A DNA stretch of 64,000 bases from Anaerolineaceae bacterium oral taxon 439 (GTDB taxonomy: Bacteria > Chloroflexota > Anaerolineae > Anaerolineales > Anaerolineaceae). The DNA lies in assembly GCA_001717545.1 (NCBI GenBank), contig CP017039.1, positions 124,001-188,000 of the forward strand. The letters run 5' to 3'. Within the stretch, counting starts at the first letter, position 1; the number at the start of each line of letters is the position of its first letter. The position numbers and the translations under genes are program-made. Positions 23,407-44,978 of this stretch are shown piece after piece. The notes beneath the pieces were generated by a model. The model ran no database searches, was not told where the DNA came from, and worked only from the letters and a program-made list of their open reading frames with translations.

Positions 23407-23436
23407 AGCTCCCGCTCCTTATGCCGCGCGCCATCC

Positions 23437-23485
23437 ATAAGGAGCTGCGGCTGTATCCTGACCCCGTCGAGGGTCAGGACCTTAT
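23437..23485. other. Small three-way junction between endolysin and portal genes
   Basis: Outer ATAAGG (23437-23442) / CCTTAT (23480-23485) encloses AGC-TGCG-GCT (23443-23452) and TCCTGACCC-CGTCGA-GGGTCAGGA (23456-23479). A further CCTTAT at 23417 offers an alternative pairing. The architecture resembles the element at 19351-19444. Confidence 0.65.
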
Positions 23486-24186
23486 CGCGCGTCAGACTCC
23501 CCCGCGCTCTTGAAAATCTCCGTCCCGCTCGCGTCCGCTTCCGCGATCCAGAAAGATACCGTACCCTTCCGCCAGACCAAACCGCGCGCAGCCTTCCGTT
23601 CCGCGCCGATCGTGATCTCCGTTCCCTGGCGGAGCTGCCCGACGATCCCCGCCGCGCCCGCCTCCGGCCGGATATTTGCTAATTCGACCGCGATCGTCGC
23701 AGCCCCTGCTTGTCCCGTTTGTGATTCCGCCTCCGCACTTGCAGTCATGGACTGGCTCGCAGTCGCAGCCGGATCCGAAACGGAATCAAAAAACAGATTC
23801 GGATCAACCGCTTTCCCGTTTTCCGTCGTCTCGAAATGCAAATGCGCTCCCGTAACGTTGCCCGTCGCGCCGCTGATCCCGATCAGCTCGCCCTTCGCGA
23901 CCCGCTGCCATCGCTTAACCAGAATCTTCGATAAATGCGCGTATTTTGACCCGATCCCGCCCGCGTGCCCGATCTTGATTAAATTCCCGTAACCCGTCCG
24001 ATCGAAACCGGCGAAATCGACCGCCCCGGCTTCGGCCGCAAAAACCTCTGTCCCCTCTGGAACCGCGTAATCGATCCCCGTGTGACGTTTCCCGGAATAA
24101 TTCCAGCCGTTCCCGCGGACGTCTGAACCGTAAATCTCCCCGAACCCGAGCGAAATATCAGCTGGAATACGAATCGGTCGTTCCAT
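23482..24186 (-). CDS. Endolysin, M23 metallopeptidase (LytM) with C-terminal SH3-like region
   Basis: The 234-residue protein has an M23 domain with the zinc motifs HTGIDYAVPEGTEV near residue 36 (H and D ligands) and AHLHFETTENG near 115 (HxH). It would cut peptide cross-links of the cell wall at lysis. There is no signal peptide, so release needs the holin. A Thr/Ser/Gln-rich linker leads to a C-terminal segment (VGQLRQGTEITIGAERKAAR) that resembles a bacterial SH3 cell-wall-binding fold. The start overlaps the preceding coiled-coil gene by 29 bases. Confidence 0.85.
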   Translation of the reverse strand: MERPIRIPADISLGFGEIYGSDVRGNGWNYSGKRHTGIDYAVPEGTEVFAAEAGAVDFAGFDRTGYGNLIKIGHAGGIGSKYAHLSKILVKRWQRVAKGELIGISGATGNVTGAHLHFETTENGKAVDPNLFFDSVSDPAATASQSMTASAEAESQTGQAGAATIAVELANIRPEAGAAGIVGQLRQGTEITIGAERKAARGLVWRKGTVSFWIAEADASGTEIFKSAGESDAR

Positions 24187-25422: not shown

Positions 25423-26577
25423 TCAAACTACCGTCGTATGAACTCGAACGATTTCCGCGTCAATCGCCTGAAATATTTGCTTCCAGTTGTTAGGAATTCC
25501 GTAATCTGAAAGTTTGATTTTATAGCTTGTCGTTTTTCTGCGTTGAAAACAACTTATGAAAGCTTCAAAGTCCTTTACGAAAGATTTTCGTTCATCATCC
25601 GCCAGAATTGAATAAATACAAATAACCGCGTCAAATACATATCCTTCGAGCTTCTTTTTGCTGGTAAATGACTGCTGATAAATCGTAAAATAATCATTTT
25701 TTTTCGAAGGCGCGATATCTAATTTTCGCCGGAATAAATATCCGTGATGTGCGCAAATATTTCGTACCGTGCTCAAACAATGAAGCCAAGATGAAAAGAA
25801 AAACTCATTTAGTTTTTGCTTTCCGTGAGAATTATACGATTTAGCTGTCTGTTGATGATGATAATTGAGCTTGGTACCGAAAATATTAAAACATTTGCCG
25901 ATTTCTTCTTGAATTGATTCCTTTAAGTACCGATAAACTTTAGATAAATCCCCGAAACTTAGAAATTCGATCAATACCCACGCCGGAAATTTGCTTCCGT
26001 AATTTAAGACATGATGATACTCAACCGGATATTTTTTTCGCAACTGAAGAATATCTCTTTTATCTTTATCGGTCAATCCTTGCGCCGATGCAGCCAGCAT
26101 TTTCTGACATACAGTTGGACTAAAAGGGCGTAAAATCAAACTCACCTGTTGCGAAAAAACACTGACACCCAAATCTCGGAAAGAATACTGAACGTTACCG
26201 ATAAGCAGATGGTTCTGATCGTCAAAACAATTCCCATTATCGAACACATCCGGTCCAAACAGTTCGGAAGAACGATAACTGATCATCGTTCTTAACTTCA
26301 ACTCAATCATTTCGATATATCGAAAAATCAAGTGTCGAAAACAGGAATCACATTCTTCAATGGCTTTAATATCTTCAAAGGAAACTTTCCGCTCGTAAGT
26401 CGGACACTTTGTTTTTGCGTTTTCTCTTTGAAATTTATGGAAATAAACGTTGAGACGATAATAATTCCGCCGGGATAGATAAGCCGTAGCTCCTGTTTCA
26501 TCCCCTATAATCATTTCCCTATCTTTGAGGATTTGAACCTGTTTGGCGAATGATTCATGTTTTTTGAGTTGATTCAT
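25423..26577 (-). CDS. Abi_2 family (AbiD/AbiF-type) HEPN abortive-infection protein
   Basis: The 384-residue protein matches the Abi_2 family: N-terminal FAKQVQILKDREMIIGDETG, YLSRRNYYRLNVYFHKFQ, EECDSCFRHLIFRYIEMIEL and LRTMISYRSSELFGPDVF. The HEPN RNase motif Rx4H is visible as RNICAHHGYLFRR at about residues 272-284. Known members abort phage infection, and AbiF homologues are reported to work as toxins held by an upstream RNA. It has its own -35/-10, a structured leader and its own terminator, is AT-rich, and sits between TerL and the holin. It is therefore a self-contained cargo unit, probably protecting the lysogen. The ribosome site is weak (ACAGG close to the ATG). Confidence 0.85.
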   Translation of the reverse strand: MNQLKKHESFAKQVQILKDREMIIGDETGATAYLSRRNYYRLNVYFHKFQRENAKTKCPTYERKVSFEDIKAIEECDSCFRHLIFRYIEMIELKLRTMISYRSSELFGPDVFDNGNCFDDQNHLLIGNVQYSFRDLGVSVFSQQVSLILRPFSPTVCQKMLAASAQGLTDKDKRDILQLRKKYPVEYHHVLNYGSKFPAWVLIEFLSFGDLSKVYRYLKESIQEEIGKCFNIFGTKLNYHHQQTAKSYNSHGKQKLNEFFFSSWLHCLSTVRNICAHHGYLFRRKLDIAPSKKNDYFTIYQQSFTSKKKLEGYVFDAVICIYSILADDERKSFVKDFEAFISCFQRRKTTSYKIKLSDYGIPNNWKQIFQAIDAEIVRVHTTVV

Positions 26578-26851: not shown

Positions 26852-28519
26852 TCAATTCTCAATCAGCGCCCCGATCTCCGGATAATACTTTTGCCTTACC
26901 GTCCACGCGTCGATAACGCTCATGAACCCATCGATCCGCGCCCGCTGCTCGATCTTGACCGGCTTCTTTTTCCGCGTTTCGCTGTCCTCCTTGAGCGCCA
27001 CGTTCAGGAAATGCGCCGCCAGAAGCTGATTATCGCCGATGATCTTAACCTTCCCGTTCTTTAACTCTCCTTCGAACTCGTCCAGTACGCCCGAAAGGTT
27101 ATATCCCTGGTAAACGTCGTCCGTATGGAAACCGAACTCCTTAAGATCGTTGACCAGGTACGCCGAACTGTAACGGTCGTACCCGATTTTCAGCGTGTAA
27201 ATCTCATGCTCGCGCAGCAGATCGACGAAAAACCGATAAACGTAGCGATAATCGACGCAATGCTCGCCTGACAGCGTGATGAAACCCCGCTGAACATAAA
27301 CGTCATACGGAACCCGGTCCGTCGCGATCGCCTTTTCCAACCGTTCCGCCGGCATGAAAAACCGCGTAAAAACGTAGTCCGTCCCGTCCCGCCGGATCAC
27401 AACCGACGCCGCCGTCAGATCGACCGTCTGCGAAAGATCGACCCCGCCGACCGCGTAGCAGCCGCGAAAATCCGCAAGCGTCAAACCCTCCGCGCCCCGG
27501 ACCGCGGCCATAACCTCCGAAAAATCCAGCCACGCCATCGACGAATTTTGCTTGATATTGCAGTATTTCGTCAGAAATTCGCGCCGTTTTGATATATTTT
27601 TCTCCGCGATCGCGATCTCCTCGCGGTAATAATCCGCGCTGACGCTGACCCCCATGTTCGGATTCGACTTCCTCAATTCGCGCAAATCGCGCCATTTTCC
27701 CGGATCGTCGATCAGGTAAAGAAACGGGCAGAGCCTTGATTCCGCGCTGTGCCCTTTCAGGAACGCTGTCGACCGCGTCAGCAGCTCGTCGTAAATCCCG
27801 TCGTGAACGTACCCCGCCGTCGTGATCGAAATGATCAGCGGCTGCCTCCGCGCGCCCTGCGCCGATTTCATCACGTCGTACTGCTTCAATCCCGCGTCGC
27901 CGACCCAGCTCCCCAGCTCGTCGTTGATCACCGCGTGCGGATTAAACCCGTCCGACTTCTTCGCCGAAAACGCCAGCGGCTTAATCGCCGTGTTCGTCTC
28001 CGAGATATAAATATCCGACCGCCGTTTTTTCGTAACGTCCGATAACTCCGGCTCCTTGAGGATCATCTGATAAAAATTATCGTAAACAATCATTGCCTGA
28101 TCCAGCTTCGGCGCTAAGCAGTAAATCTTTGCCCCGTATTCCCCGTCGATATACGCCAGATACGCGATCATCGCCGCAGCTAAAAGCGTCTTGCCGTTCT
28201 TCCGCCCAATAACGATAAAAACCTCGCGCCAGATTCGGAACCCGTCCGCGTCGACGATCCCGAAAATAACCGCGACCATCGCCTTCTGCCATAGCTCCAG
28301 CCGAATTAAATCGTCCCGACCCTCGCAGTGATGGCAGAACTCCTCAATAAACCGAATCGCCCGCTCCGCCTTTCTCGCGTCGTAAAAATACCGGCGGGAA
28401 GCGATACCCTCGCTTAAAACCGCGTAAAGCCGCCGAACCCAGTCCCCGACGGTAACCGTCCCTGCCTCGATCGCGGCGCAATACTCGGCGATCCAGTTCT
28501 GCCCCGAACCCTTTCCCAT
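26852..28519 (-). CDS. terL: Terminase large subunit
   Basis: The 555-residue motor protein has the ATPase Walker A-like EVFIVIGRKNGKTLLAAAMI at about residues 99-118 and Walker B HAVINDELGSW near 195. The C-terminal nuclease begins with GVDLSQTVDLTAASV near 359. It packages DNA into the prohead at the portal. Length and motifs fit the HK97/phage lambda-like Terminase_1 class. It is not next to the portal gene: the Abi unit and the lysis cassette lie between. Upstream, 580 bases of repeats separate it from TerS. Confidence 0.94.
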   Translation of the reverse strand: MGKGSGQNWIAEYCAAIEAGTVTVGDWVRRLYAVLSEGIASRRYFYDARKAERAIRFIEEFCHHCEGRDDLIRLELWQKAMVAVIFGIVDADGFRIWREVFIVIGRKNGKTLLAAAMIAYLAYIDGEYGAKIYCLAPKLDQAMIVYDNFYQMILKEPELSDVTKKRRSDIYISETNTAIKPLAFSAKKSDGFNPHAVINDELGSWVGDAGLKQYDVMKSAQGARRQPLIISITTAGYVHDGIYDELLTRSTAFLKGHSAESRLCPFLYLIDDPGKWRDLRELRKSNPNMGVSVSADYYREEIAIAEKNISKRREFLTKYCNIKQNSSMAWLDFSEVMAAVRGAEGLTLADFRGCYAVGGVDLSQTVDLTAASVVIRRDGTDYVFTRFFMPAERLEKAIATDRVPYDVYVQRGFITLSGEHCVDYRYVYRFFVDLLREHEIYTLKIGYDRYSSAYLVNDLKEFGFHTDDVYQGYNLSGVLDEFEGELKNGKVKIIGDNQLLAAHFLNVALKEDSETRKKKPVKIEQRARIDGFMSVIDAWTVRQKYYPEIGALIEN

Positions 28520-28661: not shown

Positions 28662-29112
28662 ACGATAACCTCACGATCGATCCGCCGGGGGCCGTCTCCG
28701 GAATTCGGATCGCCCTTCGTTTTCCGCGTCCCTGGACGGTGCGAAATCCGCCGTAAATTGAACCTTTTACCGTGATCGTTGTAACGTCCCCGCGTCAACC
28801 CTCGCCGAAATAATCCGCCGATCTCACGATAACCTCACGATCGATTTGGGCGGTCCCCTTCGTTTCCCGCGTTCCTGGGCGGCGCGAAATCCGCCGTAAA
28901 CTGAGCCTTTTACCGTGACCGTTGTAACGTCCCCGCGTCAACCCTCGCCAAAATAATCCACCGATCTCACGATAACCTCACGATCGATCCGCCGGGGTCC
29001 GTCTCCGGAATTCGGATCGCCCTTCGTTTCCCGCGTCCTTGGGCGGCGCGAAATCCGCCGTAAACTGAGCCTTTTACCGTGATCGTTGCGACGTCCCCGC
29101 GTCAACCCTCGC
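28662..29112. repeat. Three tandem ~143-164 bp direct repeats between terS and terL
   Basis: Units start with ACGATAACCTCACGATCGAT at 28662, 28826 and 28969. Each ends with ACGTCCCCGCGTCAACCCTCGC. The middle unit lacks about 21 bases (the GTCTCCGGAATTCGGATCG part). The third unit runs into the last codons of terS. No good ORF covers 28520-29101. Location between the terminase genes suggests a packaging (cos/pac) or regulatory role, or repeated duplication of the terS 3' end. Confidence 0.85.
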
Positions 29113-29485
29113 TGCGAAGAATTTGAAGACGGCTGGCCTTCTTCCGTTCCAGCGGAACCAGCTCCGTAAGCTGCTTAACGACCGTCGATAAATTCTTTGT
29201 CATCGCTAAATGCGTCTTGACCGCCTCCGACTGCTTCGTTCCGTACTGATTCTCGCCGTTTTGATACGTATCCGTATACCCCTGCTCGTTGATAATCTCT
29301 TCCAGCTCGCGAAGCGAAACGATCATGAACGCAGCCGATTCGATCAAACTCAAAACCGTCGTCATCTTGTTTTTATCCAAGTCCCGAAAAACCCGCTTGA
29401 GCCGGTTCGTCTCCTTCCGGATAAGCTCCGCCTTCGTCGGCTCGCTAATCCTGCCTGATACCTCGATCTCGTCCTTTGTCGCCAT
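29102..29485 (-). CDS. terS: Terminase small subunit (P27-like family)
   Basis: The 127-residue protein starts ATKDEIEVSGRISEPTKAEL and has ESAAFMIVSLRELEEIINEQ and QSEAVKTHLAMTKNLSTVVK, a pattern typical of the small terminase next to Terminase_1-type large subunits in Gram-positive phages. It recognises the packaging site and regulates TerL. Its last codons (RSEG) are part of the repeated 22-base word that ends each downstream tandem repeat. A terminator lies upstream, before the HNH gene. Confidence 0.75.
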   Translation of the reverse strand: MATKDEIEVSGRISEPTKAELIRKETNRLKRVFRDLDKNKMTTVLSLIESAAFMIVSLRELEEIINEQGYTDTYQNGENQYGTKQSEAVKTHLAMTKNLSTVVKQLTELVPLERKKASRLQILRSEG

Positions 29486-29599: not shown

Positions 29600-29950
29600 T
29601 TAACCTCCCCCACCGGTCGCAATTCCCCGTTCGCATCCATCCGCATGGGGGGACTCACGCAGCCGCCCGTCCGCCCCGATTCGATACCCAACCGCAGCGT
29701 CAGCTCCGCCGAAATGCTCGCGGTTATGACACGCCTGACACAGCGCCTCAAGATTTCCCCAGCCTAACGCGATCGCAGCGTCATGAATATTTGCTCGCGT
29801 CAGATACACCCGATGATGCACAACCTCCGCAGCCACCACCTCCCCGCGTGCAGCGCAGCGTTCGCACAGCCAGCCCACGCTGGCAAGATAAGCCGCACGC
29901 GTCCCCTTCCACGCCGCCCCCTTATAAAACCATTCCGCCCATGCCTTCAA
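29600..29950 (-). CDS. HNH endonuclease (packaging-associated)
   Basis: The 116-residue protein has zinc-finger pairs LCERCAARGE (Cys29, Cys32) and LCQACHNREH (Cys71, Cys74), and the catalytic VVHHRVYL (His45-His46) with Asn66 and the terminal Asn-x2-His. HNH proteins next to TerS/TerL assist the terminase in cutting at cos sites in many HK97-like phages. Its position one gene before terS supports this. The Gly-rich C-terminus is unremarkable. Confidence 0.88.
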   Translation of the reverse strand: MKAWAEWFYKGAAWKGTRAAYLASVGWLCERCAARGEVVAAEVVHHRVYLTRANIHDAAIALGWGNLEALCQACHNREHFGGADAAVGYRIGADGRLRESPHADGCERGIATGGGG

Positions 29951-30094: not shown

Positions 30095-30679
30095 TTAATC
30101 AGCCTCCACCGCGCTGCTGACCGCGGCGACCACACCGAACCAGCAAACCGCCATATCCTTCACGATCCGATTCCGCCATCGCCTCAGCGTCTTCGGGTCA
30201 CGCCCCAGCAAGTCCCCGATCTCCTCCCACGTGTACCGCTCCGCATGAACCCCGCGGTCCTGACCCGCTTCGTTTTCCCCGAAGTAATACATCCGCAGCG
30301 CCTTAAACTCCGGCCGATCGTTGAACAACTGAACCACGCGATCCACCTGATCAAACCGCGCCGCCGTCAATTCATACAGCCGCGCCCGCTCCGCCTCGCG
30401 ATCGCCGATCATCTCGTCGATCGACGCGCCCTGACCCTGCCCCGCGTTGAGAATAATCCCTGCCGATCTCCCCGGCAGCTCCTGCGCAATGTACCCCGAC
30501 CGATCCCGAAGCAGCGCCGCAAGCGACTTGTAGTTATAAAGCAGCGTCTCGGCCGCCCGAAAATAATTCACCCGTCCCGAAATCGGCAGCGTCAGCCCGA
30601 CCAGCTCTGCCGCCGTCTTCCCGGCGACAATCCCCGCCATCGCTTCCGCCAATTCTTTTTGTTCCTGATTCAGCTCCAT
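30095..30679 (-). CDS. Sigma-like/late transcription regulator with C-terminal HTH
   Basis: The 194-residue protein ends with YTWEEIGDLLGRDPKTLRRW, a sigma-region-4-like helix-turn-helix, preceded by FKALRMYYFGENEA. Phage proteins of this shape (RinA/ArpU-like) sit just before the HNH and terminase genes and switch on late transcription. ATG 30679 has AGGAGG directly before it; the ATG at 30700 overlaps the rep gene with a poor site. A terminator follows, consistent with this being the last pre-late gene. Confidence 0.7.
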   Translation of the reverse strand: MELNQEQKELAEAMAGIVAGKTAAELVGLTLPISGRVNYFRAAETLLYNYKSLAALLRDRSGYIAQELPGRSAGIILNAGQGQGASIDEMIGDREAERARLYELTAARFDQVDRVVQLFNDRPEFKALRMYYFGENEAGQDRGVHAERYTWEEIGDLLGRDPKTLRRWRNRIVKDMAVCWFGVVAAVSSAVEAD

Positions 30680-30693
30680 ATCCCTCCTAAATC

Positions 30694-31671
30694 TCAACAT
30701 CTCCGAACCGTGTCCGGCTTGATTTTCCTCATCCGCGCGTAAATATAAACCCCGCTGACAAACTCGCTGCTCTTGACCTGAATATCGACCAGCTCATACC
30801 CCGGATAGGCCTGATTGAAAATCGTCCCCGGCATGTCCGCAATCTCTTCGACCGCCTTCGCGACCCGCCCCCGGCTCATCCGCCAGTCCGAAACCGTAAC
30901 CTTCGGCTTCGTCAGATTCCGCGATCCGTACCAGCGTTTTCCCGGATACCCTTCCGTCCGTTCCGCCTCATCGCTCAAAGCCGAACCCCTCCATGACTTG
31001 ACCATGTACCGCGAAACCGCCTCAAGCCCCGTATACCGATCCGGCTGCAAACGCTTGCAGTTCGCCCAGCCCCGCCCCCAGAGCCCTTCAATCACGTCCC
31101 GATCCAACCCGCCGCTCAGAATCATGTGAACATGCGGCCGCGGCGAGACCCCGCCCTTCCGCTCGATAATCTCCGCTGCCTGATCGAAAACCCCCGGAAG
31201 CTCCGCCTGCTCAGGTTCGTCTCCCGCCTCATGCCGGAAACCCTCGACCGAATAAATATATTTCAGCTCGCCCAGCCCCGTCTTCGCCCGACGATCTTTC
31301 ATCCGCCGGAGAAAATTCCGAACGTCCCGCTGAACCTCCCGAAAGCCCGGTATCCGTTCGTCCCCGTACGTCAGCGTCACCATCAGATCCTCGCGCCCGA
31401 AGTTGCAGCTGACCAGCCGAACCAGCTTCCGAACCGCGTTCCGATCGTTGAGCCGCCGCTGCGCCTCGCGCGTAACCGCCTTCCGCGCCCGCTTCGCCTC
31501 CGCCCCCGTCTCCCAGATCGGAAAAACCTCGCTCTCCAGCATCTCCCCGCTCTTCGTCGTCTTCGTTCGGTATCGAAGCACCCCCGGCCGGACCCGACCC
31601 AGAACCTCCGGACTCGCCTCGTAAACCTCCGTATCGAAAATCGCCTCAAACTCCGCCCGCCATCGCTTCAT
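30694..31671 (-). CDS. HUH-type replication initiation protein (Rep)
   Basis: The 325-residue protein has the three motifs of HUH endonucleases in order: LMVTLTYGDE near residue 96 (motif I), RPHVHMILSGG at 178-188 (HUH, here His-Val-His) and SRYMVKSW near 220, with Tyr222 and Lys225 as the nicking motif. It would nick one strand at an origin and prime rolling-circle-type synthesis. It is the only replication protein seen in the prophage. The gap upstream (31672-31979) is rich in inverted repeats and is the likely origin. A Zn or helicase domain is not visible. Confidence 0.85.
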   Translation of the reverse strand: MKRWRAEFEAIFDTEVYEASPEVLGRVRPGVLRYRTKTTKSGEMLESEVFPIWETGAEAKRARKAVTREAQRRLNDRNAVRKLVRLVSCNFGREDLMVTLTYGDERIPGFREVQRDVRNFLRRMKDRRAKTGLGELKYIYSVEGFRHEAGDEPEQAELPGVFDQAAEIIERKGGVSPRPHVHMILSGGLDRDVIEGLWGRGWANCKRLQPDRYTGLEAVSRYMVKSWRGSALSDEAERTEGYPGKRWYGSRNLTKPKVTVSDWRMSRGRVAKAVEEIADMPGTIFNQAYPGYELVDIQVKSSEFVSGVYIYARMRKIKPDTVRRC

Positions 31672-31979
31672 GATACCTTCACCGTCGATTCGCTAATACT
31701 TATTACAAGCCTCGGAAAGCTCAACTTTCCGAGGCGCAGTCTCTGCCGGGTTGGCGGCAGGGGCGAGCCTTGCCCGGGGCAAGCCGGCTAAAATTCTCCT
31801 TACAGTCGGTCGACCTGTCCCGAGACAACGATCGCGGGAAGCCTTCACGGCCTTTGAGCCGTGAGGGCGAGCCTTGCCCGGGGCAAGCCGGCCCTCGCTT
31901 CTATATATATAGAAGCAACCGCAAAAGGAAAAGCGCTTAACTCAAAGCGCCCTTCCTGATTAACATATTCCCCGTCGCC
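31672..31979. other. Inverted-repeat-rich gene-free region, candidate Rep origin
   Basis: The 308 bases upstream of rep hold no supported gene. They contain GCCTCGGAAAG/CTTTCCGAGGC (31709-31735), CTGCCG/CGGCAG (about 31742-31759), a 26-base word GGCGAGCCTTGCCCGGGGCA... occurring twice (about 31762 and 31867), TCACGGC/GCCGTGA (about 31838-31865), an enclosing GAGGGC/GCCCTC pair and a perfect 20-base palindrome GCTTCTATATATATAGAAGC (31897-31916). Such cruciform-prone DNA fits a double- or single-strand origin for the HUH Rep. Confidence 0.65.
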
Positions 31980-32453
31980 TCAGGCGAACGCTCCCTCGGA
32001 AAACCCAGATTCGTCCCCGTCCTCGTACCTCTCGCGCAGCCGCGCTAACGTCATCCGCTGATAAAAATTCCGCGTCATCCGGATCAGCGCCTGATCCTGC
32101 TCGATCGTCTCGCGATTCAGCGCCGCCTTTTCCTCGCGCGTCAGGCGCTTCCCGAACGCCCAACCCGTCGTGCGCAGCGATAAATGAATCGAATACTGAG
32201 CCGTCAGCTCCTTCCCCATCCCTAAAATCTCCCAGTCGCCCTCCGAAATCGCCTGATCCAGCCGCGCCCGCTCCAAAGCCGCCCGGACCGCGTGAACGAA
32301 TTCCGCCGCCTCGTCATATTCGCGCCCGCCGAACCCCTCGCGCGCCGCCTTCGAAACCCCTTCCCAGCGCCGGACCAGCTGATAACCGCGCCGGACCCGG
32401 CTCTCCGCCTCGTCCGCCCTGACCGTCCGATAAACCTTTAACGACCTTCCCAT
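31980..32453 (-). CDS. Unknown early phage protein, Arg/Glu-rich
   Basis: The 157-residue product starts MGRSLKVYRTVRADEAESRV after AAGGAG at good spacing. It is highly charged and mostly helical (FVHAVRAALERARLDQAISE, ERYEDGDESGF at the end) with no membrane segment or metal motif. Its location immediately upstream of the presumed origin and rep suggests a replication or regulatory accessory, but no family is recognised. Confidence 0.55.
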   Translation of the reverse strand: MGRSLKVYRTVRADEAESRVRRGYQLVRRWEGVSKAAREGFGGREYDEAAEFVHAVRAALERARLDQAISEGDWEILGMGKELTAQYSIHLSLRTTGWAFGKRLTREEKAALNRETIEQDQALIRMTRNFYQRMTLARLRERYEDGDESGFSEGAFA

Positions 32454-32732: not shown

Positions 32733-33224
32733 TCATTTCAAACCCTTCTCAACCAGACAAATCATCGGCCGAACCCAGACCTCCGACGCCTCCGACGAAT
32801 CGAAATACCCGAACGTCTTCCCGTCGCTCGCCGCCGCCCGAATCCCGGTCCCGCGCGCCCCTTCCGAAATCGACCGCGTCCACCACCAGCAATCCACCGG
32901 CGGAATAAAATCGCTCCGACGCCGGACCCCCTCCCAGCTCATCAGCCCGACCGTCGCCTCCGCCCGGCCCCCTGCGCCGTCCGTCATCAGGAACTCCCGA
33001 ACCCGAAACCCCGAACCGTCCTCGCTCGCCGCCCGCCGCTTCAAACCCGGCAGGAAATCCTCATGCATCTGCCGGAATAAACTTGACCCGAAAAAACCGA
33101 CCCCGCGCCCCGCGTCGAACGGCGCCGGAAAAAGCGCCGCGACCGATAAGAAAAACGCCCCGCGATCGACCTCCCGGAACCCGACCCAGTCCAGACCGCC
33201 CCAGCGGATAACCCGCCCGATCAT
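32733..33224 (-). CDS. Unknown phage protein with a DUF6273-like end
   Basis: The 163-residue product overlaps the previous gene by ATGA with a GGAGG site. The middle has DFIPPVDCWWWTRSISEG and the end EASEVWVRPMICLVEK, recalling the WWLRSPG...VRPAL pattern of DUF6273 proteins, which are common in phages and have no known function. The first half is Gly/Phe-rich. The family call is tentative. Confidence 0.5.
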   Translation of the reverse strand: MIGRVIRWGGLDWVGFREVDRGAFFLSVAALFPAPFDAGRGVGFFGSSLFRQMHEDFLPGLKRRAASEDGSGFRVREFLMTDGAGGRAEATVGLMSWEGVRRRSDFIPPVDCWWWTRSISEGARGTGIRAAASDGKTFGYFDSSEASEVWVRPMICLVEKGLK

Positions 33225-33436
33225 AGCGCCTCCAAATCCTCCGGAATCGTCGCCGATTCCCCCGTAAGCGCCTCGTATCGGAGCCGCGCCTCGTATAACG
33301 GCGCGAAAACCCGGACAGCCTGCTCGATAATCCAGCCCTCCGCTTCCGCCTCTTCCGCAGCGCTCATCGTCGCCTCGATCGGCTTCGCCTCTTCAAACCC
33401 GTCCTTCGTTCGCCGCGCGATCATCCCAATCTTCAT
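33221..33436 (-). CDS. Small acidic unknown protein
   Basis: The 71-residue product starts MKIGMIARRTKDGFEEAKPI and is Glu/Ala-rich and helical (MSAAEEAEAEGWIIEQAVRV). It overlaps both neighbours by four bases (ATGA), so it is translated as part of the coupled early operon. No family recognised. Confidence 0.5.
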   Translation of the reverse strand: MKIGMIARRTKDGFEEAKPIEATMSAAEEAEAEGWIIEQAVRVFAPLYEARLRYEALTGESATIPEDLEAL

Positions 33437-33729
33437 CCCTGCTCTCCTCTCGTTTCAATTTCCATCCCTGCCGCGGCTTCCGCCGCCGCCCGACGCGCAA
33501 GAAACATCCCGTCCCGGATATACATCCGCGCCCCCTTGAGCCGTCTCCGAATTCGAATAAATACCTCGTCCTCTTCCCCTTCGATCGCCGCGAGAACCTT
33601 CTCGTTCAGCTCCTCAAACGCTTCCAGACTCTCGACCAAGTCCGCTAACTTTGAAGACGCTGCGTTCTCAAGACGCCGCGTCGAATGTCGAAAACGTTGG
33701 TTTTCGACGCTTGTCTCTGTTTTCTTCAT
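33433..33729 (-). CDS. Small helical unknown protein
   Basis: The 98-residue product is charged and helical (SKLADLVESLEAFEELNEKV, then FIRIRRRLKGARMYIRDGM). It overlaps its neighbours by ATGA and has no membrane segment or metal motif. An accessory early function is inferred from position only. Confidence 0.5.
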   Translation of the reverse strand: MKKTETSVENQRFRHSTRRLENAASSKLADLVESLEAFEELNEKVLAAIEGEEDEVFIRIRRRLKGARMYIRDGMFLARRAAAEAAAGMEIETRGEQG

Positions 33730-34016
33730 TCCTCGTCCTCCTGATCCTCGACCAATAAAAGCCCGGATTCAATAAAGTCATATTTCCCGGATTTGATCCG
33801 ATTTATCGCCGTTGATAAAACGTTGTGAAGCCGCGAAGCCTCCGAGAAAGAAAGCTCCAGCTCGATAATCTCCCCGCTTTCGCTTCGTCTTTCGATCGAA
33901 ATTGCCTGATCTGCCGCCGATTTTCCGATAACCGACAGCACGCCATATTCCCCGAATTTCAAACAATCCAAAACAAGCCTGAAAGACGGACGAATTCCAA
34001 AATCTTTCTTGTTCAT
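33726..34016 (-). CDS. Small unknown early protein
   Basis: The 96-residue product starts MNKKDFGIRPSFRLVLDCLK after GGAGG, has EIIELELSFSEASRLHNVLS in the middle and an acidic tail (LLLVEDQEDEE). Strand-then-helix layout with no catalytic motif. Its ribosome site region overlaps the -10 box of the rightward gene at 34046. Confidence 0.5.
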   Translation of the reverse strand: MNKKDFGIRPSFRLVLDCLKFGEYGVLSVIGKSAADQAISIERRSESGEIIELELSFSEASRLHNVLSTAINRIKSGKYDFIESGLLLVEDQEDEE

Positions 34017-34033
34017 CTTCCTTGCGCCTCCGT

Positions 34034-34039
34034 TACAAT
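34034..34039 (+). promoter_or_regulatory. -10 box for a leaderless rightward gene
   Basis: TACAAT lies exactly six bases before ATG 34046, so transcription would begin at or next to the start codon. No Shine-Dalgarno sequence is present. The -35 is weak (TTCATC at 34012). Confidence 0.45.
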
Positions 34040-34045
34040 AACCTT

Positions 34046-34576
34046 ATGAAACCTGAATTCCTATCCGCCTTGAAAAACCTCTCCGCCTCGATCGGCTACA
34101 GCGAAATCGTCGCCACCCTCGCGCTCGGACTCTCCGCCTACAACACCGTCGTCGCCCGATTGGATAAACGCTTTCACGCCAAAATCTTCATGAGCCATCA
34201 ATCCGCCAACAGCGGACTCCCCCATTTCGTCCTCCAGGTCGTCAACGCCTGCCAGGTCACCATCTACGCCGGCCGCTTCTTCATCACCGAACGAAAAACC
34301 GGCGTTGTCTTTGAATCCGGCTGCATCCCGGTCCCCGGAGAGTACCGGGATTGGACTTACGACGGACTCCCCGTCCCGATCCATCCCGGCATGAGCTTCC
34401 GCTTCATGATCCGCGTCGACGATAAAATCCTTGCCTCCGCCGTTCCGTCCGAAGCCCTTCGATTCGACATAGCCTTGCAGCTCGCCAACAACCAGACCTT
34501 CAAAATCAAAAAGCGGAAACTCAACCCCGATTGCCTGAAATCCCTCGAATCCTTTCGGAACCCCGGAAACCGTTGA
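34046..34576 (+). CDS. Membrane-anchored unknown protein, opposite to the early operon
   Basis: The 176-residue product has one N-terminal hydrophobic segment (YSEIVATLALGLSAYNTVVA) and a strand-rich soluble part (FVLQVVNACQVTIYAGRFFI, GMSFRFMIRVDDKI). The rightward frame looks protein-like, whereas the antisense frame is Gly/Asp-rich shadow. It is transcribed against the surrounding lytic operon, so it should be active in the lysogen and silenced by antisense transcription on induction. That fits an immunity or exclusion moron, but no family is recognised. Confidence 0.6.
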   Translation: MKPEFLSALKNLSASIGYSEIVATLALGLSAYNTVVARLDKRFHAKIFMSHQSANSGLPHFVLQVVNACQVTIYAGRFFITERKTGVVFESGCIPVPGEYRDWTYDGLPVPIHPGMSFRFMIRVDDKILASAVPSEALRFDIALQLANNQTFKIKKRKLNPDCLKSLESFRNPGNR

Positions 34577-34578
34577 CG

Positions 34579-34761
34579 TCATAACCCCAACCGTTTCAGG
34601 ACCAGAGCCAGAACCGACAGAATAATCCCGATCCAACCCAATAACTCCCGTTTATCCAAAGCGTCCATATTCGCCATGTCGTAATAAAAATCGCTGACCG
34701 CTTCCTTTATCCCTTCCCATCGATCCGAAAACCATTCAGCGAAACCGTCGAACACGCTCAC
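34579..34761 (-). CDS. 60-residue membrane protein
   Basis: It starts MSVFDGFAEWFSDRWEGIKE and ends with one membrane span (LLGWIGIILSVLALVLKRLG). It overlaps the previous gene by ATGA. It is the last gene before the rightward gene at 34046-34576. Function unknown. Confidence 0.5.
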   Translation of the reverse strand: MSVFDGFAEWFSDRWEGIKEAVSDFYYDMANMDALDKRELLGWIGIILSVLALVLKRLGL

Positions 34762-34940
34762 CCTTCCCCTTTCTCATGCTTAGCAGTAAGCAGAACGTCC
34801 GTCCTCCCCGCCGCGTTTAAAGCATCCAGAACCCCGTCTAAATAGCCCTTGACGTAACCTTTCCGCGCCCCTGCCGGAATCGACGCCATCGTCCAATACC
34901 GAATCGCTAACCTTTCCAGCTTTTCATCCGTCTCGTTCAT
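34758..34940 (-). CDS. 60-residue unknown early protein
   Basis: The product (MNETDEKLERLAIRYWTMAS, then GYVKGYLDGVLDALNAAGRT) is soluble and helical. It overlaps the XRE gene stop by ATGA and is the second gene of the lytic operon. Small helical proteins in this place are often regulators, but nothing specific is visible. Confidence 0.5.
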   Translation of the reverse strand: MNETDEKLERLAIRYWTMASIPAGARKGYVKGYLDGVLDALNAAGRTDVLLTAKHEKGEG

Positions 34941-35149
34941 CCTTCCCCCTCGCGCGCAGCCTCATCCTCCCGCTCGAATAACTCGTCGATCGTGCAGCCT
35001 AAAACTTTCGCGATTTCTGGTAGCTTGTTTGCCATTGGGTATTGCCCGTTCTCCCATTTGGATACTGCTGTCTGGTTAACAGAAAGCAATGTTCCAAGTT
35101 GTTCTTGAGTTAGATTTCGTTTTCTGCGTAACGCTTCAATTTTGTTCAT
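34937..35149 (-). CDS. Cro-like XRE transcriptional regulator
   Basis: The 70-residue protein is a single HTH_3 domain: MNKIEALRRKRNLTQEQLGT, VNQTAVSKWENGQYPMA, LPEIAKVLGCTIDELFERED. The helix-turn-helix (QEQLGTLLSVNQTAVSKW) is almost the same as that of the divergent repressor, so both probably bind the same operators. I use ATG 35149 with GGAGG nine bases upstream. As the first gene of the lytic operon it plays the Cro role. Confidence 0.85.
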   Translation of the reverse strand: MNKIEALRRKRNLTQEQLGTLLSVNQTAVSKWENGQYPMANKLPEIAKVLGCTIDELFEREDEAAREGEG

Positions 35150-35164
35150 GATGTTTAGCCTCCA

Positions 35165-35245
35165 CAAGCTTAATATAATCCAAGTAGGGCTATTAGTCAA
35201 GCTTATTAAGGCTAATGCAGTGCTTTGCTATTGATTTTTATTAGC
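35165..35245. promoter_or_regulatory. Candidate operator cluster of the lysis-lysogeny switch
   Basis: CAAGCTTA occurs at 35165-35172 and 35198-35205, 33 bases apart. ATTAG half-sites occur at 35192, 35211 (inverted, GCTAAT) and 35240 (ATTAGC). They overlap both divergent promoters, as expected for CI/Cro binding. The exact operator consensus is not determined. Confidence 0.5.
35172..35200 (-). promoter_or_regulatory. Lytic (PR-like) promoter
   Basis: On the minus strand: TTGACT (35200-35195), 17-base spacer, TATATT (35177-35172). It would drive the XRE gene and the whole leftward early operon. Confidence 0.82.
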
Positions 35246-35259
35246 AGTGGGAATATCAT
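35231..35259 (+). promoter_or_regulatory. Lysogenic (PRM-like) promoter, leaderless
   Basis: TTGATT (35231-35236), 17-base spacer, TATCAT (35254-35259). Six bases later comes ATG 35266, so the repressor mRNA should start at its own AUG, as lambda cI does from PRM. No Shine-Dalgarno sequence precedes the ATG. Confidence 0.78.
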
Positions 35260-35265
35260 TACAGT

Positions 35266-35892
35266 ATGGTAAATATCAAAGTGCTCAGGAAAAAGGCTAA
35301 CCTTTCTCAAGCTGAGCTTGCTGAAAGGCTCAACGTGAATCAAACTGCTGTTTCAAAATGGGAGTTAGGGAGGACGTTGCCAGATGCTGATACTTTGAGT
35401 CGCTTGGCCGATATTTTTGATATTTCGATAGATCAAATTTTAGGGCGCGAGTCTGTAAACGATGTTTATTTCCCTACATATGTAGATGATCTTATTCAGC
35501 GTTTCAAACCCGTCCGGATCCAGCGCCTCCCCATGCTCGGGAATATCGCCGCCGGAAAACCCATCTTTGCCAACGAGGAACATGAAATCATGGTCGAAAC
35601 CACCATCCGCGCCGATTTCTGCCTGACCGTTTGCGGCGACTCCATGATCGGCGCCGGAATCCTCGACGGCGACGTCGTCATGATCCGGAAACAGCCGATC
35701 GTTCAAAACGGCGAAATCGCCGCCGTCCTGATCGACGACGAAGCTACCCTGAAACGCTTTTATAAAACCGATACCCTCGTAACCCTGATATCCGAAAACC
35801 CCGCCTATCCGCCGATCGTCTATAAAGCCGAAGACGGCCGCGATATATTGATCCTCGGAAAAGCCGTCGGCCTGACCCGAATTTTTAAATAA
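35266..35892 (+). CDS. CI/LexA-like repressor with S24 autoprotease domain
   Basis: The 208-residue protein joins an N-terminal XRE domain (LSQAELAERLNVNQTAVSKW) to a C-terminal S24 peptidase. The self-cleavage site is Ala-Gly in IAAGKPI (about 96-97), the nucleophile Ser is in CGDSMIGAG (126) and the general base Lys in TLKRFY (163). It keeps the prophage silent and should cleave itself after RecA activation by DNA damage, inducing the phage. The gene heads the rightward lysogeny arm. Confidence 0.93.
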   Translation: MVNIKVLRKKANLSQAELAERLNVNQTAVSKWELGRTLPDADTLSRLADIFDISIDQILGRESVNDVYFPTYVDDLIQRFKPVRIQRLPMLGNIAAGKPIFANEEHEIMVETTIRADFCLTVCGDSMIGAGILDGDVVMIRKQPIVQNGEIAAVLIDDEATLKRFYKTDTLVTLISENPAYPPIVYKAEDGRDILILGKAVGLTRIFK

Positions 35893-35908
35893 GAAAGGTG
35901 CGCCTGTG

Positions 35909-36288
35909 ATGACCGTCGGACAATACGAACCGTTTGCCCCCCCCTCGGATATTTCGACCTCCCCAGAGGAAAATACCCGCCCAGCCGAATCTTCGGAATG
36001 CTCGTCGACGGCGTCGGAATGTCCCCCTTCTACCTCCCCGGCGATCTCGTTATCTTTTATGCGACCGATAAAATCGAAAACAGCGATGATGTCGCCGTGA
36101 AAATTGCCGGAGGCGAACCGAAGCTCCGCCGGATCCGGAAAACTCCGGCCGGAATCCTTCTGACCCCGCTGAATCCAGCCGCTCAGGGCGAAACCTATAC
36201 CGCCGAAGAAATAAAAAACCTCCCCGTTGAAATCCTCGGCGTCGCTGTCGAACAGCGGCGCACCCTCAATAACTGGCTCAAAACGTAA
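35909..36288 (+). pseudogene. S24-like gene broken by a frameshift in a C8 run
   Basis: From ATG 35909 the frame reads MTVGQYEPFAP and then leaves at a run of eight C (35937-35944). The -1 frame continues as LGYFDLPRGKYPPSRIFGML, VDGVGMSPFYLPGDLVIFYA, DDVAVKIAGGEPKLRRI and stops at 36288. One extra C would give a single 126-residue protein. The domain is LexA/UmuD-like but the active GDSM is GVGM, so the nucleophile Ser is absent. It may be phase-variable, programmed, a sequencing slip or a true pseudogene. Shares the rightward transcript with the repressor. Confidence 0.65.
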
Positions 36289-36301
36289 GAAAGGAACGGA
36301 A

Positions 36302-37054
36302 ATGGCAGGAAGAAAACAAAAATCCAGCTGCTTCGGAACCGCGATCGCGATCCTTTTCGGCTTCGCCGTCCTGTACGGCTGCGCCTCCTCCTGTACTTCC
36401 TCGAAATCCCCAAAGCCTCAGTCCCCGCCGACCTCGATCCCGGCCGAAGACCAAATTCTCAAGACCATGGTCGCCGAAATCCAGCTTTCCTATACCCCGA
36501 CGATAACCCTGACGCCGACGCCTTCGTTTACGCCGACCGATGAATCGACCGCCGAAATCGCGCTGATCCCAACCCTTTCGACGAGCAGAGAACCGTCCAG
36601 CTCGACGCTAGCTCAGCAAAAATACATCGTTCAGGATGGCGATACCTGCTGGGGAATCGCCGTAGATAAATATAAAATCCCCTTGGAATCCTTTCTCGCC
36701 GCGAACGGAATCTCGGCCGCGTACTGCGATATCTCGGTAGGTCAGGAAGTCGTCATACCCGCCGCCGATTATCCAGTCCCGACCGCGCTCCCGTACGCCG
36801 CGCCGACGTCGGTTCCCGTTTATATTGCCCCGACGGCCGCGCCCGTTTACGCCGCGCCGGCCGTCGTCGCGCCGGCTTCCGATTACGCCGCGCCTTCTGA
36901 AAGCGAATGTAACCCCAATTACATCGATGTCTGCCTTCCGATGTATGGAAATGTCCGGTGTAAAGATATTAAATATACGCGCTTTCGCCACAACGGATAC
37001 GATCCGTTCGGCCTTGACCGCGATGGAGACGGAATCTGCTGCGAAGGGAAATAA
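36302..37054 (+). CDS. Lipoprotein with LysM and Excalibur domains
   Basis: The 250-residue protein has a signal peptide with lipobox VLYGC (Cys27), a Thr-Pro-rich linker (TPTITLTPTPSFTPT), a LysM domain (KYIVQDGDTCWGIAVDKYKI to QEVVIP), a second Ala-Pro-rich linker and a C-terminal Excalibur domain with DRDGDGICC calcium motif. It would be anchored outside the membrane and bind peptidoglycan. Position in the lysogeny operon suggests a lysogenic-conversion function such as superinfection exclusion; that is inference. ATG 36302 follows AAGGAACGGA. Confidence 0.78.
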   Translation: MAGRKQKSSCFGTAIAILFGFAVLYGCASSCTSSKSPKPQSPPTSIPAEDQILKTMVAEIQLSYTPTITLTPTPSFTPTDESTAEIALIPTLSTSREPSSSTLAQQKYIVQDGDTCWGIAVDKYKIPLESFLAANGISAAYCDISVGQEVVIPAADYPVPTALPYAAPTSVPVYIAPTAAPVYAAPAVVAPASDYAAPSESECNPNYIDVCLPMYGNVRCKDIKYTRFRHNGYDPFGLDRDGDGICCEGK

Positions 37055-37601
37055 AAAACGCCCGAAGGCGTTGATAAATTGCATATACCCTAAAGAAAAA
37101 AAGGAGGCGGACCCCGACGATACCGCTCAACGACAAAACCCAGAAAAATAACCCCGCGATAAAAAGACGCTGCCGGCTGACGATAATCTTCTCGTTTCGA
37201 CCGATCGCGTCGTAAATATTGACGATTTCCTGCGCGATTCGCTCGTTCTCGAAATCCCAGTAGTCCGCGACTAATCCGTCGTAATCCGTCCGATGCGACT
37301 TATGCCAGCCCCTTGGGATCGACGCCAGGATAAAAAGAATCGCGCTGATGAGGAAAAAGGCGAGAAAAGCGGCGAAACCGATCAAATGATATTTTGACGA
37401 ATCTGCCGGAAGCGGACGATTTAACGGAATAATCGCCCCGATCGAAACTGAAATGGAGGAAAAACCTAAAAATCGTAACGCTAAATCGCGATATAAATCC
37501 GCCGTTCGCTTCGTCTCCGCCTCGTCCGCTCGCGCGATTCCTAACGCCTCGCGCAGCCCGGCTAAACCTTCGCCGTCTGATAAAACGCTCTCCTGATTCA
37601 T
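36969..37601 (-). CDS. Three- to four-span membrane protein, C-terminus probably altered by a homopolymer slip
   Basis: The 210-residue frame begins MNQESVLSDGEGLAGLREAL, then has membrane segments at FLGFSSISVSIGAIIPL, HLIGFAAFLAFFLISAILFI and LFIAGLFFWVLSLSGIVGV. After VRLLFFF it runs through its own terminator and 86 bases into the opposite LysM gene. A run of seven T (37096-37102 on the plus strand as A) explains this: with eight, the frame would end VRLLFFL at a TAG at 37090, just before the terminator. Function unknown; it resembles 2-4 span prophage membrane proteins with a C-terminal SMODS/SLATT-like shape. Confidence 0.6.
   Translation of the reverse strand: MNQESVLSDGEGLAGLREALGIARADEAETKRTADLYRDLALRFLGFSSISVSIGAIIPLNRPLPADSSKYHLIGFAAFLAFFLISAILFILASIPRGWHKSHRTDYDGLVADYWDFENERIAQEIVNIYDAIGRNEKIIVSRQRLFIAGLFFWVLSLSGIVGVRLLFFFRVYAIYQRLRAFFISLRSRFRLHRGQGRTDRIRCGESAYI
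37057..37072 (-). terminator. Intrinsic terminator, UUCG-type hairpin
   Basis: Minus strand: AACGCC-TTCG-GGCGTT followed by TTTTTA. It should end the leftward membrane gene, although the present frame of that gene reads through it. Confidence 0.8.
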
Positions 37602-37617
37602 GAAAGGACCTCCATAA

Positions 37618-37743
37618 ATGAACCCAAACCCGCCGCCGAAACCAAAACCGACAACACCGCCGACCCCGCGCCCGGCTGATCAGCGCGGCGGCGGAAAAGA
37701 CCGCCATATTCCCGAAAAACCCGGAAGCCGTCCGAAGTCTTGA
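37618..37743 (+). CDS. 41-residue Pro-rich small ORF
   Basis: The frame reads MNPNPPPKPKPTTPPTPRPA and ends HIPEKPGSRPKS. AAAGGA lies about ten bases upstream. Pro/Lys-rich and probably unstructured. It stands between the divergent membrane gene and the recombinase. It may be a real leader-sized gene or chance. Confidence 0.35.
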   Translation: MNPNPPPKPKPTTPPTPRPADQRGGGKDRHIPEKPGSRPKS

Positions 37744-37772
37744 TCTAATTATAGTTGAATTGATAACTGGAA

Positions 37773-37790
37773 AAAACGCCCGAAGGCGAT
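37773..37790 (-). terminator. Second copy of the UUCG-type terminator
   Basis: AAAAAACGCCCGAAGGCG at 37773-37790 repeats 18 bases of the terminator at 37053-37070. On the minus strand it gives CGCC-TTCG-GGCG followed by TTTTTT. It would stop leftward read-through just before the recombinase promoter region. Confidence 0.6.
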
Positions 37791-37823
37791 TTGAAATTTA
37801 ACGGCAGCGCGGAGTTACCCCTG

Positions 37824-39566
37824 ATGTCTACGAAAGTTGCGATTTACGCCCGTTATTCGTCCGCAAATCAAACCGAACAGTCGATCGAAGGACAGATTCG
37901 CGACTGCTATTCCTACGCGGAACGGAACGACTTTACCGTCGTCGCTGAATATATCGATCGCGCGATTTCGGGCCTGACCGACGATCGGCCCGATTTCCAG
38001 CGCATGATCGAAGATTCGAAAAAACGTGAATTCGATTTTATCCTCGTCTGGAAGCTCGACCGGTTCAGCCGTGATCGCTACGACTCCGCGATCTATAAGC
38101 GCGAGCTGAAGAAAAACGGCGTCCGCGTCCTGTCCGTAATGGAAAACGTCGGGCATGGCGATGAATCGATTATCCTTGAATCGATCCTCGAATCGATGGC
38201 GGAATTCTATTCCCGCGACCTGTCGAAAAAAGTTAAGCGCGGCCTGCGCGAAACCTGCCTGAAAGGAAATTTCCCCGGCGGCTTCGTCCCGCTCGGTTAT
38301 CAGGTCGCCGATCGGAAGATCGTACCCGATCCGGAGATCGCCCCGCTGATCCGCCGTGCCTTCGAGCGCTTCGCCGCCGGCGTTCCAACCGGCCGGATCG
38401 TCGAAGAACTGAACGCCGCCGGCGTTCGTGGGAACCAGGGCCGCCCGCTAACGTACAGCACCGTCAACAAAATCCTGAAGAATCGTAAGTACATCGGCGA
38501 ATTCATCCATGGCGAAAACCGGCTTGTCGACGCTTATGAGCCGCTGATCGATCCCGAAACCTTTGAACGCGTTCAAGCGCGTATTTCCGGAAATAAACGC
38601 GCTCCGGCGGCCGGCAAAGCCGATGAACCCTATCGGCTTCGCGGAAAAATCTTCTGCGGTTATTGCGGGTCCGCGCTGGTCGGTGAATCCGGACGTGGGA
38701 AGCTCGGGGCTGTCTATCATTACTACGCCTGCGCCCAAAAGAAAAAGCACCGTGCATGCCGGAAAATGAACGAGCGGAAAGGCTTCTTAGAGTGGTACGT
38801 CGCTGAACAGACGACCGAATACGTCCTGAATCCTGAACGCCTCGACTATATTGCCCGCGGCGTGATTCGTAGCCTGCGCAACGACGATAAAACGAAAGAT
38901 ATCTTTCGAATCCGAAAGAAAATTGACGCGCTGGAATCCGAAATCATATCCTATCTGGATATGCTCCCAACCGCGCCGCCCGCGACGCGTGAACGATTGT
39001 TTCAGCGGATTGAAACCCAAACCGCACAAAAGGAAACCGCCGAAACCGAACTCGCGCGCGCCGAGCTTTCCGCGCGAACGCAGCTCAATGAAGAGGATGT
39101 AATCAAGTGGATTAAAAATTTTTGCGTCGGCGATCTCCTCGATCCCGAATTTCAGCAGCGGCTCATCGACACCTTTATAAATGCGATCTTCCTGTTCGAA
39201 GATAAAATCGTCATCTATTACAACGTAAAAAACGGGAAGCAGGTATCCTACTTCGAAATGATCAGCGATCTGAACGATCCGGACGATGATCTTAATCCGG
39301 ACGTGCCATCCCATCCATCGCCTCCCGATGACCCGCCGGGTTCGGATTTGCTTCCATCTACTCCGCTGAAAAACCGCGCTGATCTCATATTTCGTGGTTG
39401 TGCGCTCTGGGAATACAGATTTGTCAGATTTACAGCTCGCGTATTTCATATTTTTGTTATCTGTCAAAGTCAGAATACAGACAGAATATTAAAGCCGCCC
39501 AATGTTGTTTTGGGCGACTTTAATATAATATATCAAACAATCAATGGACAGATAAAGGAAGCCTGA
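37824..39566 (+). CDS. Large serine recombinase (integrase)
   Basis: The 580-residue protein integrates and excises the phage. From ATG 37824 it begins MSTKVAIYARYSSANQTEQS, with the catalytic Ser at about residue 12 and the resolvase motif VWKLDRFSRDR near 76. The recombinase domain (GGFVPLGYQVADRKIVPDPE) and a zinc ribbon with CGYCGS and YYACAQKKKHRACR follow, then a coiled coil. The upstream TTG start at 37791 lacks a ribosome site. The last 50 or so residues are AT-rich, differ from the rest, and overlap the opposite host gene by 26 bases, so the right attachment site may lie inside this 3' end. Confidence 0.93.
   Translation: MSTKVAIYARYSSANQTEQSIEGQIRDCYSYAERNDFTVVAEYIDRAISGLTDDRPDFQRMIEDSKKREFDFILVWKLDRFSRDRYDSAIYKRELKKNGVRVLSVMENVGHGDESIILESILESMAEFYSRDLSKKVKRGLRETCLKGNFPGGFVPLGYQVADRKIVPDPEIAPLIRRAFERFAAGVPTGRIVEELNAAGVRGNQGRPLTYSTVNKILKNRKYIGEFIHGENRLVDAYEPLIDPETFERVQARISGNKRAPAAGKADEPYRLRGKIFCGYCGSALVGESGRGKLGAVYHYYACAQKKKHRACRKMNERKGFLEWYVAEQTTEYVLNPERLDYIARGVIRSLRNDDKTKDIFRIRKKIDALESEIISYLDMLPTAPPATRERLFQRIETQTAQKETAETELARAELSARTQLNEEDVIKWIKNFCVGDLLDPEFQQRLIDTFINAIFLFEDKIVIYYNVKNGKQVSYFEMISDLNDPDDDLNPDVPSHPSPPDDPPGSDLLPSTPLKNRADLIFRGCALWEYRFVRFTARVFHIFVICQSQNTDRILKPPNVVLGDFNIIYQTINGQIKEA
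39489..39524. terminator. Bidirectional hairpin at the prophage-host boundary
   Basis: TTAAAGCCGCCCAA pairs (one mismatch) with TTTGGGCGACTTTAA; AU-rich runs flank it on both sides. It serves as terminator for the leftward locus A operon, and lies within the recombinase 3' end. Confidence 0.7.
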
Positions 39567-40563: not shown

Positions 40564-40576
40564 TGTTCCCTCTAAA

Positions 40577-41458: not shown

Positions 41459-41468
41459 TATATCCACC

Positions 41469-44921: not shown

Positions 44922-44935
44922 GGCTTCTTAATTTA

Positions 44936-44978
44936 CGGGAGGGAACGATCCATTTGAAAATGACCGCTCCCTCAGAAC
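44936..44978 (-). other. Hairpin between binding-protein and ATPase genes of locus A
   Basis: Minus strand: GAGGGA-G-CG near 44974 pairs with CG-T-TCCCTC near 44940, loop about 17 bases. A similar hairpin occurs at the same place in locus B. It may stabilise the abundant binding-protein mRNA and limit downstream transcription. Confidence 0.55.

Follow-up and report, generated by a model that had tools for sequence, protein, structure and literature searches.

The 308-nt gap before the rep gene of a tailed-phage prophage (31672–31979) and the Rep protein itself very probably make up a rolling-circle replication origin with its initiator, and comparison of related loci places the likely nick at CTTG|TAAT; a folded start for the lagging strand behind this nick is proposed more tentatively. 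All positions refer to the window, that is, the whole 64,000-nt stretch of DNA analysed, which comes from Anaerolineaceae bacterium oral taxon 439. A sequence-only reading of this DNA had proposed Rep-driven initiation of rolling-circle type from an origin in the gap, with host enzymes doing the rest; the comparative evidence points the same way and narrows the putative origin to one exact site.

The prophage and its replication protein

Profile matches to Pfam and PHROGs identified a siphovirus-type tailed-phage prophage within the window, with a large terminase, portal, protease, HK97-type major head protein and tail genes placing it in Caudoviricetes. The same prophage is present in IMG/VR as a record of 27,856 bases (L002), which by its match extends from ~7294 to ~35149 of the window. 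Its early operon reads leftwards from a Cro/CI-type switch (34937–35892) through Rep, a regulator and an HNH nuclease to the terminase genes. The main genes are as follows:

26852–28519, minus strand: large terminase (Pfam and PHROGs)
29102–29485, minus strand: probable small terminase (its TerS matches are weak, and PHROG 1066, whose function is unknown, matches best)
29600–29950, minus strand: HNH nuclease (PHROGs)
30095–30700, minus strand: regulator, PHROG 36, overlapping the end of rep (PHROGs)
30694–31671, minus strand: Rep, predicted HUH replication initiator with H180, H182 and Y222 (profiles, alignments, structure model)
34937–35200, minus strand: Cro-like HTH protein, head of the early operon (profile search)
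35266–35892, plus strand: CI-like repressor with S24 peptidase domain (Pfam and PHROGs)
37791–39566, plus strand: large serine recombinase, probable integrase (Pfam)

Rep (325 aa) belongs to PHROG 3584, ‘replication initiation protein’, by a whole-protein profile match (E = 4e-61). The only Pfam match up to E 0.1 was PF23343, REP_ORF2-G2P (31.7 bits, cut-off 27.8), with no Rep_1, Rep_2 or Phage_GPA. HUH motifs had been claimed for Rep from its letters, and motifs 2 and 3 were located, the former as H180-V-H182 and the latter as Y222-M-V-K225 (stretch RYMVKSWRG) with a single tyrosine. Both histidines and the tyrosine are invariant in 61/61 family rows (alignment A3, numbered one lower than Rep as the first Met is omitted). 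In the diverse alignment A1 (11 rows), H182 and Y222 are invariant and H180 and K225 nearly so, Asn replacing H180 in one row.

Structure prediction, one of the checks proposed earlier, gave a good AlphaFold model fitting the HUH fold (pLDDT 82.4, pTM 0.82). Its top solved neighbour was PDB 2x3g of SIRV1 (Z 10.6, 3.1 Å over 111 residues), which we take to be a Rep although the entry says hypothetical. Rep domains of circovirus, geminivirus, AAV, parvovirus and pMV158 scored Z 5.6–6.6, level with unrelated proteins of ferredoxin-like fold, ribosomal S6 among them. A Foldseek search of the model on the PDB alone gave no match under E 0.001, and neither phmmer nor a profile search found a related chain among PDB sequences. 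Among predicted viral structures, Rep models matched with E down to 1e-23, the nearest being replication-associated proteins of Siphoviridae, followed by microvirus initiators. Outside tailed phages the nearest folds are those of microvirus initiators and SIRV1 2x3g, which come from viruses that are not tailed and share 12–16% identity with Rep in the named rows. Rep is a predicted HUH nickase, with the nuclease fold seen in the model.

The claim that no other replication protein is visible in the prophage was borne out by profile searches. No PHROGs family of helicase, primase, loader or polymerase was found among 39 distinct window ORFs (a set that includes host GlgX and leaves out a few small head-tail ORFs), and six-frame searches of the IMG/VR record of the prophage returned no DnaB_C, IstB/DnaC-type, D5_N or SSB. 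A separate replisome gene, which the sequence-only reading had named as evidence against itself, was not found with the tested profiles. Forty-four phage records carrying the Rep family (the prophage, three named phages and 40 other IMG/VR contigs) gave DnaB_C in 0/44, D5_N in 0/44 and an IstB/DnaC-type match over the cut-off in 0/44, with one sub-threshold match of 14 bits; these records are possibly fragments, so the zeros apply to the records and are not proof for each virus. TerL_ATPase was present in 34 of the 44 and SSB in 11, the prophage not being among the latter.

Several side observations concern the rest of the prophage. An AbiD-like abortive-infection gene (Abi_2, PADLOC AbiD) lies at 25423–26577, between the large terminase and the holin. 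A tRNA-Ser (7112–7201) lies immediately beyond the left end; no repeat matching it was found on the right side of the prophage, and the recombinase is a serine recombinase. Searches for attachment sites gave no repeat longer than 12 nt between 7051–7320 and 35101–41500, the 12-nt one lying inside the recombinase gene, and no 14-nt repeat between 6901–7700 and 33001–50000. A tmRNA call by ARAGORN (23328–23841), which overlaps the portal gene and is without Rfam support at the gathering threshold, is probably false.

The gap before rep and a shared 16-nt site

The following features were annotated in and around the gap:

31682–31713, minus strand: wider conserved block, family matrix columns −4 to +27
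31694–31709, minus strand: candidate nick site CTTGTAATAAGTATTA, by recurrence beside Rep; putative cut between 31706 (G) and 31705 (T)
31706–31979, minus strand: stretch rich in folds on the 5′ side of the site, a candidate for single-strand origin and termination region
31709–31735, minus strand: perfect hairpin, 11 bp with a loop of 5, directly 5′ of the 16-nt site
31743–31760, unstranded: 6-bp hairpin
31761–31788, unstranded: 28-nt word, copy 1, containing a near-palindrome of 15 nt
31845–31864, unstranded: 7-bp hairpin
31865–31892, unstranded: 28-nt word, copy 2
31897–31916, unstranded: perfect 20-nt AT-centred palindrome
31926–31957, unstranded: imperfect hairpin following the upstream gene, resembling a terminator by eye only

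At least five inverted repeats had been noted in the gap; we counted seven non-overlapping perfect stems of at least 6 bp, far above shuffled sequence (mean 0.8, maximum 3 in 200 shuffles). Fold z was −5.4 on the minus strand and −7.1 on the plus strand, and 0/100 shuffles were as stable on either strand. The perfect 20-base AT-centred palindrome described earlier is present, its length being reached by 1/500 shuffles. The repeated word was also confirmed as a repeat, but its length is 28 nt and not 26; even a 12-nt repeat occurred in only 1/500 shuffles. The 24-nt core of this word occurs at no third place in the 2.95-Mb genome, even with as many as 3 mismatches allowed, and a terminator scan found none at the 31926–31957 hairpin.

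Two candidate elements were rejected on comparison with relatives: the 28-nt word as an origin element of general occurrence (1/79 pre-site regions and 1 control contained an exact direct repeat of at least 14 nt) and the AT palindrome as the nick site (no such word was among the top enriched upstream k-mers). The repeat word and palindrome stressed earlier are local details; what recurs is a 16-nt site and the richness in folding before it.

Loci for this comparison were drawn from IMG/VR, from bacterial genomes and from phage records, both named and metagenomic. Two loci with a truncated Rep were dropped; the 127 usable ones, among them the window, were dereplicated to 87 at 85% Rep identity. 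The octamer CTTGTAAT was found upstream of Rep in 46/85 regions versus 0/338 background slices and forms the core of a longer site, with the family matrix CG.[CG]CTYGTAATRGGTATTA[AT]C....C.ACGA. A site matching at 13/16 or better on the Rep strand, between −500 and +60 of the called Rep start, was present in 78/87 loci, and elsewhere the same threshold gave 39 matches in 1.46 Mb, both strands included. With Y allowed at position three and the zone widened slightly, the consensus CTYGTAATRGGTATTA stands upstream of Rep on the same strand in 80/87 dereplicated loci including the window, a count made in the loci in which the site was discovered, which are related to one another, have poorly conserved flanks and are not formally independent. 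The window site, CTTGTAATAAGTATTA, lies directly 3′ of the 11-bp hairpin and 38 nt before Rep; it matches the consensus at 15/16, with no other site of at least 13/16 in the 35 kb examined.

Seven of the 87 loci were without the site at the threshold of the larger count. The stretch begins too close to Rep in two of them (L006 and L055), a perfect site lies 533 nt upstream of Rep with a gene between in a third (L105), the phages Arawn (L004) and TMW 1.46 P2 (L005) carry 12/16 versions, and L135 and L138 have no site near Rep. The site is non-palindromic and fixed in orientation, and its distance to the called Rep start ranges from −322 to +72 (−533 in L105). In the reverse direction, 51/80 listed exact 16-mers in IMG/VR directly precede a Rep-family ORF; the other 29 comprise four near an end of the retrieved stretch, one with a Rep fragment on the other side and 24 without Rep in that stretch. 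One exact site (L165, 3343–3358) is on a stretch without Rep, beside an ORF that resembles an HNH nuclease by eye, and another (L206, 718–733) is downstream of a Rep fragment; both are possible origins parted from their Rep.

A same-strand gap of at least 100 nt is found before Rep in 76% of 84 loci and after Rep in 27% of 86, compared with 33% of 2128 other same-strand cases. By sequence comparison, the gap offers what a double-strand origin (dso) would have, namely a conserved, strand-fixed, Rep-linked site near a hairpin. In alignment A4 (27 loci), an ATTATA-like box followed by CA and a AAAGTCAA box were observed ~30–70 nt before the site, neither being evident in the window; they are perhaps the rep promoter and a Rep-binding site.

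Folding behind the site and the proposed mode of initiation

The scheme that we infer, from nicking and the exact cut to the host factors, the role of a single-strand origin (sso) and concatemers, would run as follows. With the prophage excised and circularised, Rep would bind the origin that immediately precedes its own gene, and the hairpin at 31709–31735 would help to expose the site. Tyr222 would cut the minus strand at CTTG|TAAT and stay joined to the 5′ end. Host polymerase and a host helicase (one of the PcrA/UvrD/Rep type is our guess) would then extend the free 3′-OH across rep and on around the circle, displacing one strand. By analogy with plasmids, synthesis from a nick at this position would proceed into rep, and displacement would reach the fold-rich stretch on the 5′ side of the nick last, so that second-strand synthesis might start there. 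Rep could then either end the round or allow it to continue, yielding concatemers for the terminase. A passage in PMC4595007 places the sso of most rolling-circle plasmids upstream of the dso, where it stays double-stranded until the leading strand is almost complete; another, in PMC5703833, describes the dso as often lying before rep and ssoA as a large secondary structure primed by RNA polymerase.

A short hairpin ending just before the site was found in 23/80 loci at a score of at least 7, versus 4.2 expected; among 238 positional controls the share was 7.6%. Counting this near-nick hairpin in a fixed frame gave an unconvincing result, since a slide by +1 scored equally well. Across the 200 nt before the site, mean fold z was about −3.3 to −3.4, against −0.2 for the gene-internal control. 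RNAalifold returned 0 pairs of a shared covarying fold in an alignment of 27 regions; the hairpins seem to slide, so the claim of structure rests on energy and not on covariation. Fold excess and position would fit a candidate sso here, but the alignment gave no shared fold.

It is possible, though we somewhat doubt it, that the nick site is real and the fold-rich stretch consists of a terminator and regulatory hairpins only, with no single-strand origin. Intergenic gaps in Rep phages are generally fold-rich (188 other gaps of the same loci had a mean z of −1.4, 30% of them under −2), no shared fold is alignable before the site, and the 31926–31957 hairpin looks like a terminator by eye. The pre-site stretches are, however, more structured than those other gaps (80% under −2, p = 8e-14 for the difference), and they are placed as a passage in PMC4595007 places plasmid sso elements.

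We consider it improbable that the 16-mer is instead an operator or promoter of the rep operon and that the true origin is elsewhere, for example inside rep as in P2. In most loci it does stand shortly before an early gene, with the ATTATA-like and AAAGTCAA boxes upstream of it in many relatives, and the gap therefore surely holds regulatory signals too. Against such a role, the 16-mer is non-palindromic and fixed in orientation, its distance to Rep varies over the wide range given above (with a gene between in L105), it occurs after a Rep fragment in L206 and without Rep in L165, and no sigma-70-like match was found in 31500–32200.

Nucleotide skew, another check proposed earlier, was computed in 2-kb bins across 7201–39566. 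All 16 were positive on the Rep strand, with no switch, a result that is uninformative because gene direction confounds it. That Rep is a leftover or accessory nickase, with two-way replication from another origin by host DnaA/DnaB alone, is very improbable: most Rep-family rows have neither loader nor helicase, which makes every mode dependent on the host, and GC skew is silent on the mode, but the catalytic residues are invariant throughout the 61 rows and the site is kept with Rep across very diverged family members.

Relation to known systems and distribution of the Rep family

The earlier remark that rolling-circle initiation would be unusual for a dsDNA tailed phage does not hold, since P2 replicates in this way and the Rep family is widespread in tailed phages. 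An excerpt of PMC3986222 describes the tailed phage P2 as an established case of rolling-circle replication, started by its own nickase with host enzymes. It also describes a P2-type Rep in Vibrio PV94, which has two active tyrosines and whose gene possibly contains the origin. P2 and PV94 are like the prophage in being tailed temperate phages with a rolling-circle start by their own nickase (predicted for the prophage). The A protein of P2 has two active tyrosines and its origin inside the gene, whereas the prophage Rep has one motif-3 Tyr, no Phage_GPA match and a candidate origin before the gene. Judged from these features, Rep would work like the P2 protein but is not P2-type.

Closer relatives are annotated in phages of Latilactobacillus, Terrisporobacter and Butyrivibrio: TMW 1.46 P2 (OP455940), TPDSL_ph2 (PP197247) and Arawn (NC_048848) are tailed phages of 31–37 kb whose Rep homologues (28–30% identity) are annotated as replication (initiation) protein. 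All three are without an annotated replicative helicase in the stretches shown and without a DnaB_C, D5_N or IstB match in the whole records. The site upstream of Rep matches at 15/16 in TPDSL_ph2 and at 12/16 in the other two. SSB genes are present in Arawn and TPDSL_ph2, and none was found in the prophage or in TMW 1.46 P2. According to its record, TMW 1.46 P2 was obtained as virions from an induced lysate.

Plasmids of the pC194/pT181/pMV158 kind resemble the gap in that their dso is often upstream of rep, with a partly palindromic Rep site and a folded sso (excerpts of PMC5703833). The prophage differs from rolling-circle plasmids in that its Rep has no Rep_1/Rep_2 Pfam match and the cargo is a tailed phage. 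CTTG|TAAT presumably resembles the cut sites of pC194 and phiX174.

The Rep family was already annotated; what appears to be new, from comparison of the loci, is the shared, strand-fixed 16-nt site beside Rep. For such a shared origin no paper was recognised among the matches listed, which is weak evidence, with most subscription papers and all preprints outside the search; the words ‘tailed’ and ‘Caudovirales’ are absent from the portion of PMC6668415 consulted. We lean towards the view that small temperate tailed phages include a large lineage, mostly from Bacillota, in which a whole replisome module has been exchanged for a single-tyrosine Rep of the microvirus/plasmid kind and a compact origin, the CTYGTAATRGGTATTA nick site of this origin standing behind a folded sso-like block. 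This would be a second, P2-independent rolling-circle route, and sequence alone would suffice to locate its origin.

Replication start points are unknown for most temperate phages, and a strictly placed 16-nt signal would predict both start point and strand in dozens of them, making the replication mode directly testable with one oligo assay. We regard the finding as of moderate to good interest, because the candidate origin is now defined and is a cheap target for a test. It also suggests that host helicase and priming, not phage genes, limit where Rep phages replicate, and the site offers a means of searching for tailed phages in which no known replisome gene is recognised among the early genes.

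Relatives of Rep were found in 135 IMG/VR contigs and at 43 bacterial-genome loci, 42 of the latter being Bacillota by record titles, with a query itself built from Bacillota phages. In plasmids, a homologue of the window Rep was found in 1/72,556 records: NZ_CP124276.1 (4494–5252), a 34-kb non-mobilizable plasmid of Paraclostridium sordellii, whose size suggests a phage-plasmid. Within the phylum of the host, PHROG 3584 at E ≤ 1e-10 was found in 1/400 genomes, that of Anaerolineaceae bacterium oral taxon 439 itself.

Distant Reps occur in 5/13 other genomes of the host genus, and the 16-nt site is absent from them. Five of the seven fetched host-genus loci (L021, L022, L023, L024 and L027) have the word GCTCGGCATA upstream of Rep, which perhaps marks a second origin type of the host genus with its cut site in the loop. 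In four of these five loci GCTCGGCATA is followed by AAGTATTAGG, between inverted CCTGTTC/GAACAGG arms.
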